Shown piece after piece: positions 31,733 through 34,188 of a DNA stretch of 64,000 nucleotides. The position numbers were made by a program, and so were the translations under genes. Under the pieces are notes generated by a model. It saw only the letters and a program-made list of their open reading frames with translations. It had not been told where the DNA came from and did not search any database. Origin of the DNA: Chitinophaga pinensis (GTDB taxonomy: Bacteria > Bacteroidota > Bacteroidia > NS11-12g > UBA955). The DNA lies in NCBI GenBank assembly GCA_945888525.1, contig CAMDAF010000001.1, positions 62,001 to 126,000 of the forward strand, given 5' to 3'. The first letter of the stretch is position 1. Each line of letters opens with the position of its first letter.

Positions 31733-31876
31733 ATGGATCAATTGAATTTAGTTTCAAAAAAATATGATAAGGAAGAAACAAATCAATTAATCGAAATAAA
31801 AATGGAACTTGAAGATTTGAAGCGCCAGCAAAGAGAAATTTTGGATGCATTGAAAAATAAGCAACTAGATAAATGA
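31733..31876 (+). CDS. 47-residue coiled-coil protein
   Basis: ATG-started frame: MDQLNLVSKKYDKEETNQLI, then a heptad-like stretch IKMELEDLKRQQREILDAL and a basic tail. It is strongly charged and predicted to be a single amphipathic helix. It sits 16 nt after the T9SS gene and 23 nt before DUF2779, so it may be operonic with the latter. I do not recognise a family. Small size makes it uncertain, but composition and spacing favour a real gene. Confidence 0.5.
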   Translation: MDQLNLVSKKYDKEETNQLIEIKMELEDLKRQQREILDALKNKQLDK

Positions 31877-31899
31877 ACCGAGAAATTTAAACAAAAGAA

Positions 31900-33390
31900 A
31901 TGGCTTTAATTTCTAAATCTCGCTTTGTTTCAGGCGTCCAATGCGAAAAAAAACTCTATTATGATCTTTATCGCAAAGATTTAAAACCACCTATTTCAGA
32001 GCAGCAGAAAGAATTGTTTTCTTCAGGCAATATTATTGGTCAACTTGCTCAAAAATTATATCCGAACGGTAAAGATGCAAGCCCGGAAAGTTATTATGAT
32101 TTTTCGTCTTCTTTTAAAAATACAAAGCAATGGATTAATGAAGGCGTTGAAACAATTTACGAAGCTGCATTTTTGGATAATGATGTAATGGCTGCATTGG
32201 ATATTCTGCATCATCAAAACGGAGAGCGTTGGGCTATTGAGGTTAAAAGCAGCACAGATGTTAACAATTATCACATCACTGATGCTGCTTTGCAATACTG
32301 GGTTATGAGCAACTCTGGCTTTAAGCCTGATAAATTCTTTTTGATGCATGTCAATAATAAATTTATTAAAAATGGCATTATTGATCCAAAAGAATTTTTC
32401 ACATTAAAAGAAATTACAGATCAGGTAATTGAAAAACAGTATGAAGTAAATCATAATGTAATTCGTTTAAAAAATGTAGTAAAAAACAAAGAATCAGAGC
32501 CCTTTGTTAAAATTGGCAAACACTGTAGCTCTCCCTTTATCTGTGATTACATGCACCATTGTTGGCAACACATTCCAGAAAATTCTGTTTTTAGTTTGCC
32601 CTACGCAAGAGGTAAAGAATGGGAATTGTATGAAAAAGGTATTGTTGAATTAGCTTCTATTCCCGACGAAGTCGAACTTAGTCATCGTCAGAAATTGCAG
32701 GTAGAAGGTATAAAACATGGTACTTCATATGTAGATAGAACTGCGATAAAAGAATTTATTTCTGACTGGACTTATCCACTTTATTTCTTTGACTTTGAAA
32801 CAGTATTTCCTCTTATTCCTGTTTTGGATGGAACTACACCCATGCAGCAAGTGCCTTTTCAATATTCCTTACACATAAAATCTGATGACCGTTCAGAAAT
32901 GATACATCGGGAATTTTTGGCTGACCCTGCAAGTTTTCAAAGTGGTTCAACGCGCAATCCACTCAAGGCAATAATAGAACAATTGAAAACTGATTTTGGC
33001 CCTAATGGCAGTATCGTAGCGTATAATGCAAGTTTTGAAATGGATGTTTTAAGAAAATTGGCAATCGCTTTCCCCGAAGACAAAGCGTTTTTAGATGGTT
33101 TAATCAATCGTTTTGTTGACCTGTTAATTCCGTTTAGAAAAGCTTGGTATTACAAGCCTGAAATGGGTAATTCTGCATCCATTAAGTATGTTTTACCCGC
33201 TATAGCCCCTGAGTTTTCATATAAAGATTTAGAAATAAGTAACGGAGGATTAGCTAGTAATACATATCTATCAATGATATTAAATGAATTCGAAGGTAAT
33301 GAAGCTGAAACTCGAAAAAATTTATTAGCCTATTGTGAAAGAGATACATTAGGTATGGTAGTTATATGGAAACATTTAACAGAACTTTGA
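31900..33390 (+). CDS. DUF2779: Cas4-like Fe-S nuclease fused to DEDD exonuclease
   Basis: 496 residues. N-terminal half: C15 (GVQC) with C209, C215 and C221 (HCSSPFICDYMHHCW) gives the one-plus-three cysteine pattern of a Cas4/AddB-type 4Fe-4S cluster; between them E88, D101, E114 and K116 (ALDIL, AIEVKSS) make a PD-(D/E)XK nuclease site. C-terminal half: D298-F-E300 (FFDFETVF), E380/D382 (YNASFEMDVLR) and D482 (CERDTLG) fit a DnaQ-like DEDD 3'-5' exonuclease. The domain family is DUF2779; its biological role is not established. No helicase, integrase or restriction gene is adjacent. A PH-fold gene follows 39 nt downstream. Confidence 0.85.
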   Translation: MALISKSRFVSGVQCEKKLYYDLYRKDLKPPISEQQKELFSSGNIIGQLAQKLYPNGKDASPESYYDFSSSFKNTKQWINEGVETIYEAAFLDNDVMAALDILHHQNGERWAIEVKSSTDVNNYHITDAALQYWVMSNSGFKPDKFFLMHVNNKFIKNGIIDPKEFFTLKEITDQVIEKQYEVNHNVIRLKNVVKNKESEPFVKIGKHCSSPFICDYMHHCWQHIPENSVFSLPYARGKEWELYEKGIVELASIPDEVELSHRQKLQVEGIKHGTSYVDRTAIKEFISDWTYPLYFFDFETVFPLIPVLDGTTPMQQVPFQYSLHIKSDDRSEMIHREFLADPASFQSGSTRNPLKAIIEQLKTDFGPNGSIVAYNASFEMDVLRKLAIAFPEDKAFLDGLINRFVDLLIPFRKAWYYKPEMGNSASIKYVLPAIAPEFSYKDLEISNGGLASNTYLSMILNEFEGNEAETRKNLLAYCERDTLGMVVIWKHLTEL

Positions 33391-33429
33391 ATATTTTTTA
33401 TATATTTACCAGATAAAAAAAGTTAAAAG

Positions 33430-33714
33430 ATGAAATCATATACTGCATCGCGTTTAACAGATGGCAACGGAATATTTCCATCAAGAATAATTATTGGTGA
33501 TTCTACGGTTACATTTAAAATTCCAAGTCTATTTAGTGGCCAAGAAACAACAATTCCGTTTAGTAGAATTTCATCCGTAAATATTGATAGTCCATTTATT
33601 GGATTCTCAACCATTATAATTGAAACAACTGGCGAGGGACAAATACTTGCCAAAGGATTTTTAAAAAGTGAAGTAGAAGAAATGAAAGCGCTTATTTTAT
33701 CAAAATTAACTTGA
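33430..33714 (+). CDS. Small bacterial PH-domain-like protein
   Basis: 94 residues with alternating short beta strands (RIIIGDSTVTFKIP, TTIPFSRISSVNID, STIIIETTGEGQILAKGF) and a C-terminal helix (SEVEEMKALILSKL), the layout of the bacterial PH fold (bPH). It has no signal peptide or membrane helix, so it is cytoplasmic. These domains are widespread adaptors of unknown ligand. It lies 39 nt after the DUF2779 gene and is probably co-transcribed. Confidence 0.65.
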   Translation: MKSYTASRLTDGNGIFPSRIIIGDSTVTFKIPSLFSGQETTIPFSRISSVNIDSPFIGFSTIIIETTGEGQILAKGFLKSEVEEMKALILSKLT

Positions 33715-33959
33715 TGTAAAAAGGTTTTCAGTTTTTTTAGTTGTTATTTAATTGATCTCAAAAACGTAAATAACAAAAATTTCATGGACTAAACTTTAAA
33801 ATAAAAAGCGCAAAACATTGAAAATAAATGAAAGTAAGGCATTGCTTCGTGATACTAGAAGTAGGCCATTTAAAAAACCAAAGTAAAGCTTGGCCTTTCT
33901 GCTTTTTATGCAATAAACGCAGCTACTCAAGCGGGCTTGGTGTCTGTGTTATGGGATTA

Positions 33960-34001
33960 CTGCGTGGTCCCAAGGCTACGAGGGTTCTGCACAAGACAAA
34001 A
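33960..34001 (+). other. tRNA 3'-end relic
   Basis: On the plus strand GTGGTCC (33964-33970) is followed 19 nt later by CACAAGACAAAAGC. The minus-strand tRNA-Lys has GTGGTCC in its variable/T-arm region and CACAAGACAAAAGC across its 3' end, 22 nt later. A terminator hairpin follows at once in both. The relic lacks the T-loop consensus and acceptor stem, so it is not a working tRNA. Confidence 0.45.
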
Positions 34002-34034
34002 GCAATTGATTGGCATCAATTGCACTTTTTATTT
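34002..34034 (+). terminator. Hairpin terminator after the tRNA relic
   Basis: Perfect 9-bp stem GCAATTGAT / ATCAATTGC, loop TGGC, then ACTTTTTATTT. It may terminate the DUF2779-PH transcript. Confidence 0.7.
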
Positions 34035-34110: not shown

Positions 34111-34115
34111 TCTTG

Positions 34116-34188
34116 TGATCCCGCTGGGATTCGAACCCAGGACCACTACATTAAAAGTGTAATGCTCTACCAGCTGAGCTACGGAATC
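34116..34188 (-). tRNA. tRNA-Lys (anticodon TTT)
   Basis: 73-nt cloverleaf on the minus strand: acceptor stem GATTCCG / CGGGATC with discriminator A, D arm TAGCTCAGCTGGTAGAGCA, anticodon loop CTTTTAA (TTT), T arm CTGGGTTCGAATCCCAG. CCA is not encoded. It is flanked by a canonical promoter and a hairpin terminator, so it is a single-tRNA transcription unit. Confidence 0.95.

Follow-up and report, generated by a model that had tools for sequence, protein, structure and literature searches.

A probably mobile DUF2779 protein with two predicted nuclease sites, encoded next to a tRNA-Lys gene in Bacteroidota

Described relatives of the DUF2779 protein

Cas4 proteins combine a PD-(D/E)XK nuclease site with an Fe-S cluster, for which one cysteine is N-terminal and three are C-terminal. 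In the TM0106/COG2251 RecB-like putative nucleases (TIGR03491), a Cas4-like N-terminus is joined to an RNase-H-like domain. UvrD-Cas4 fusions, which combine a Cas4-like domain with a helicase, are known from defence loci in which WYL genes are present as well (PMC5704561). DUF2779 (PF11074) has been published as RNHL family F.17, with a DUF83 (PD-(D/E)XK-like) domain followed by an RNase-H-like exonuclease domain, for which 3'-5' exonuclease activity was predicted (PMC3985635). The papers found contain no biochemistry of this family, and the literature searched gives no function for it. Phage defence systems are among the targets of WYL regulators (PMC9122601, PMC9122588), which in PafBC respond to single-stranded DNA (PMC11804915).

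The 64,000-nt stretch of DNA analysed here (the window) encodes a 496-aa protein (31900..33390, + strand) which belongs to the DUF2779 family and has the same two-domain architecture. Family and architecture were already known, while the association with WYL genes and the recurring PH-fold companion presented below are apparently undescribed, as neither was found in the open-access papers searched. The cysteines of the window protein follow the Cas4 and solo-Cas4 layout and are candidate Fe-S ligands, but the protein scores 15.3 bits against Cas4 (PF01930), below the curated cut-off of 22.7, and carries an additional exonuclease domain. No cas1 or cas2 neighbours were recognised at the window, and the loci of relatives have WYL, KAP, AbiE and other genes. 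The similarity to the TM0106/COG2251 proteins extends to both domains, although the window protein misses the TIGR03491 cut-off (27.7 bits vs 97.45) and is to be regarded as a member of a sister family; one plasmid carries nucleases of both types no more than 3 kb apart. As in the UvrD-Cas4 fusions, a Cas4-like domain is combined with a second enzyme and found in stand-alone or variable contexts, sometimes with WYL genes, but the fused partner is a helicase in those proteins and an exonuclease here (PMC5704561).

Single-domain versions of the Cas4-like N-terminus, about 223-236 aa long and 32-33% identical, were observed in two genomes of the same genus, at loci L009 (G047) and L010 (G053). 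The short form of L010 lacks the exonuclease domain, and comparable short forms occur in other families.

Domain content and predicted active sites

The position and length of the 496-aa ORF had been given correctly in the earlier note on this DNA. Its product matches PF11074 over the full profile (1-126 of 126) with 120.7 bits against a cut-off of 23.3 (E 5.9e-35) and has an N-terminal PD-(D/E)XK/DUF83-like domain with the expected catalytic residues, which places it in the DUF2779 family. A C-terminal RNase-H-like 3'-5' exonuclease domain (residues ~290-496; 32767..33387, + strand) is predicted from the matches to PF11074 and RNase_H_2 (PF13482; 7.6e-6) and from residue invariance. The N-terminal Cas4/RecB-like Fe-S PD-(D/E)XK domain (residues ~1-231; 31900..32592, + strand) is predicted from invariant residues and a low-confidence AF2 model, and its Cas4-like matches are weak (Cas_Cas4 0.022, TIGR03491 1.3e-6, PADLOC Cas4 6e-4).

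In an alignment of 65 full-length homologues, residues C15, E88, D101, E114, K116, C209, C215 and C221 were identical in all sequences. Both residue sets recognised in the earlier note, the Cas4-like cysteines (C15/C209/C215/C221), which may bind an Fe-S cluster, and the PD-(D/E)XK residues (E88/D101/E114/K116), are therefore invariant. The DEDD set needed one correction: D298, E300, E380 and D482 were also identical in 65/65 homologues, whereas D382, which had been offered as an alternative to E380, was kept in only 5% of them and was rejected as a catalytic residue. Y478 is likewise invariant, so that the pattern reads D298-x-E300, E380 (a motif II Glu replacing Asp) and Y478-x3-D482. As motif III has the form Y-x3-D, the exonuclease is DEDDy-like. 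This degree of conservation lies far beyond chance, and the earlier prediction that a single chain carries two nuclease sites is well supported by it.

Structure prediction of the fusion had been proposed as a check. The AF2 model, computed from a shallow set of seven sequences, was poor (pLDDT 60) and usable as a hint only; its best PDB matches were MGME1, RecE and Cas4 folds, as expected for the N-terminal domain. No solved structures related to the nuclease by sequence were found.

The DEDDy-like domain might act on RNA or short fragments, which would make the protein an RNA- or oligonucleotide-degrading enzyme. RNases are found among the RNase-H-like DEDD families (PMC3985635), and a Mycoplasma bovis DUF2779 transposon mutant showed no growth with host cells in a screen that also yielded nanoRNase and c-di-AMP phosphodiesterase mutants (PMC7373297). 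However, the N-terminal domain belongs to the Cas4/RecB type, of which the members studied so far have DNA as their substrate, and many of the neighbours are DNA helicases or nucleases. An RNA substrate is thus considered improbable, and a DNA substrate more likely.

Small ORFs flanking the nuclease gene

Two small ORFs on the + strand flank the nuclease gene, namely a Lys/Glu-rich 47-aa ORF (31733..31876), 23 nt upstream, and a gene for a 94-aa, bPH_2-like PH-fold protein (33430..33714), 39 nt downstream. Sizes and gaps agree with the earlier note, which had suggested that the three ORFs could form a module. That grouping did not hold in the neighbourhood search. No homologue of the 47-aa ORF was found in L002-L007 or the other loci compared, and other genes occupy its place upstream of nucleases that are 84-85% identical. 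A three-gene operon was rejected, since its first ORF is absent from the closest relatives, and the 47-aa ORF is placed outside the unit. Its codon use is coding-like, and it may therefore be a lineage-specific gene, though not a conserved partner.

The 94-aa protein scores 20.7 against bPH_2 (PF03703), just below the cut-off of 22, while three homologues lie above it (22.8-23.6). In its model (pLDDT 81), seven strands are followed by a C-terminal helix, and PH/PTB-superfold proteins dominate the best PDB matches. These data support the PH-like fold suggested earlier. The PH gene adjoins the nuclease gene in five loci, which show three different arrangements and fall on two separate branches of the tree of nucleases. 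It follows the nuclease on the same strand in the window, L002 and L003, and lies downstream in convergent orientation in L004; in L100 it precedes the nuclease on the same strand. As L100 stands apart from the other four loci in the tree, either the two genes came together at least twice or their pairing was exchanged. Seven genomes of the class sample contain both genes, which are adjacent in three of them against 0.005 expected (P ~1e-5 when two independent events only are counted).

The linkage is nevertheless loose, though real, because the PH gene is also found alone elsewhere. It often occurs without the nuclease, in unrelated surroundings, and in some cases forms the N-terminal part of a longer protein; no homologues were found on plasmids. 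Together with its absence from about 60 nuclease loci, this led to the rejection of the PH protein as an obligatory partner. It is only an occasional companion and would be, at most, an adaptor for the nuclease, with which it may make contact.

Small ORFs on both sides of a nuclease, and an AbiEii gene 13 nt upstream of the nuclease in L006, could suggest a dedicated toxin-antitoxin or abortive-infection unit, with a toxic nuclease kept in check by small partners. Such a unit is very unlikely here: the 47-aa ORF is unconserved, and the PH gene switches side and strand with respect to the nuclease and is often present where the nuclease is not, unlike an antitoxin.

The tRNA-Lys site

A tRNA-Lys(TTT) gene (34115..34188, - strand) forms the end of a conserved pgm-ychF-tRNA block and the border of a variable site. 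Eight genomes of the same genus all keep ychF; pgm is its neighbour in seven of them, and a tRNA-Lys was found in six. None of the eight has a nuclease or PH gene at the ychF site. In the two closest of these genomes, DNA similarity (83-84%) stops at the tRNA. What lies beyond the tRNA varies from species to species within the genus, and the nuclease located there, with its PH companion, is therefore probably recent cargo. The tRNA neighbour reported in the earlier note is indeed present, but as a conserved landmark and not as a part of the unit.

A structured element of about 110 bp (window positions 33900-34010; fold z ~-2.4) was observed between the PH gene and the tRNA-Lys gene. It matched no Rfam family. 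The genome contains one copy, and three copies are present in another genome of the genus (G099, locus L207), around small genes beside the same tRNA-Lys.

Distribution and phylogeny of the nuclease

The nuclease was found in 6 of the 108 genomes of the order and in 102 of the 395 sampled Bacteroidia genomes, i.e. about one quarter, as well as in 30 plasmid records from Campylobacterota, Cyanobacteriota, Bacillota, Pseudomonadota and Rhodothermota. There was no match among 50,697 phage records. A phage or virus origin was rejected, as neither these records nor the viral contigs, in a scan that finds close relatives only, contained relatives. Copies with 84-85% identity are present in two other Bacteroidota MAGs, L002 (CAMCYR010000003.1) and L003 (CAMBFX010000090.1). 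The L002 genome (G127) is placed in another family, f22, the other members of which have an ndk-linked, Flavobacterium-like gene order. The titles of the two MAGs name Chitinophaga pinensis and Chryseobacterium gleum, but with the L002 genome placed in f22 the public species label is doubtful.

The nuclease tree was divided, by a split chosen after the tree had been seen, into a 32-member clade (Flavobacterium and others) and the remaining 33 rows. The 32-member clade shows none of the scored contexts, and part of it has a stable housekeeping gene order, beside ndk in Flavobacterium. Within the 33-row set, 17 have WYL, KAP or PH companions; this is the mobile set, and the window copy belongs to it.

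A vertically inherited clade with conserved neighbours (ndk and a DHH family gene) in Flavobacterium, a second conserved gene order in seven f5 genomes, and nearest N-terminal folds (RecE, MGME1) that are those of end-processing enzymes would all suit a housekeeping DNA-repair or recombination nuclease without a defence role, whose neighbours merely reflect where accessory genes gather. Against this, the branch of the window copy is patchy, crosses families and occupies variable sites with WYL, KAP and AbiE genes, and we regard this explanation as rather unlikely. The likeliest interpretation is that DUF2779 proteins are DNA end nucleases, with two sites of probably opposite polarity, which have repeatedly been drawn into DNA-damage or anti-mobile-element responses and exist alongside a resident, probably repair-related set.

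WYL, KAP and defence genes near the nuclease

Pfam WYL was searched genome-wide in 56 nuclease-carrying genomes, which contain 40 WYL genes and 68 nuclease genes; the nuclease genes had been identified in previous searches, and some of the genes are close to a contig end. A nuclease gene is present within 4.5 kb of ten of the 40 WYL genes, against 0.15 expected (Poisson P ~1e-15). Some of these loci are related (L082/L118 and L087/L093/L096), so that the independent events number about six or seven; the P value is too small as given, but the excess is still large. The window copy has no WYL gene nearby, the sole WYL gene of its genome being on another contig.

For KAP genes, the genome-wide test gave 2 of 13 near the nuclease against 0.05 expected, and a KAP NTPase gene is found near the nearest relatives of the window copy (L002, L003, L004, L005 and L080). 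PDDEXK_4 and DnaB_C genes are located near the nuclease in L120, and DnaB_C in L092. Ten selected, non-random plasmid loci included four with WYL genes nearby and three with SbcC/SbcD-like genes.

Comparison with a defence catalogue, also suggested in the earlier note, gave no enrichment. PADLOC families showed no excess among 140 nuclease neighbours relative to 140 proteins at 20 random loci; hits were few in both samples, and those of the control were largely one methyltransferase. As these families are no commoner than at random loci, a general defence-island enrichment is unsupported. The DNA-processing or defence role put forward earlier is plausible and gains one strong argument from the proximity to WYL genes, but none from PADLOC families.

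Proposed role

Taken as a whole, the locus is best read as encoding a mobile DUF2779 dual nuclease that would trim DNA ends of both types and was recruited to DNA-damage or anti-phage responses, a reading to which we assign a probability of about 0.5. A horizontally moving DUF2779 copy with a PH-fold companion gene would have been inserted on the variable side of the tRNA-Lys. In the protein, the putative Fe-S cluster (C15/C209/C215/C221) would hold the N-terminal Cas4/RecB-like domain together, this domain would cut or resect single-stranded DNA ends, and the C-terminal DEDDy-type domain would digest 3' ends. In this way, a single polypeptide could act on DNA ends of either polarity, whether the DNA is broken, branched or foreign. 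Because the gene is paired in many relatives with WYL and ATPase, helicase or other nuclease genes, it is probably an interchangeable end-processing module, which probably serves DNA-damage-induced or anti-mobile-element responses.

More tentatively, and less likely than not, the mobile DUF2779 proteins might act as the common end-processing nuclease in an as yet unnamed modular response to phage or DNA damage, which would be under WYL control and have exchangeable partners, namely a KAP NTPase, a DnaB-type ATPase with PDDEXK_4, an SbcCD-like pair, an AbiE pair or a PH-fold adaptor. The WYL association and the invariant double active site lead from a domain of unknown function to a specific and testable proposal, a two-polarity DNA end nuclease that would be switched on by DNA damage or infection.

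Other genes at nuclease loci

L088 and L120 share a small protein of 211-216 aa, whose gene is found at a distance of one to three genes from that of the nuclease. The L088 copy has no Pfam match and is encoded by a gene overlapping the one for an 831-aa AAA_11/AAA_12 helicase. In L083 and L088, which belong to two families, an AAA protein of 683-703 aa with a Peptidase_M41-like C-terminus is encoded near the nuclease and a WYL gene.
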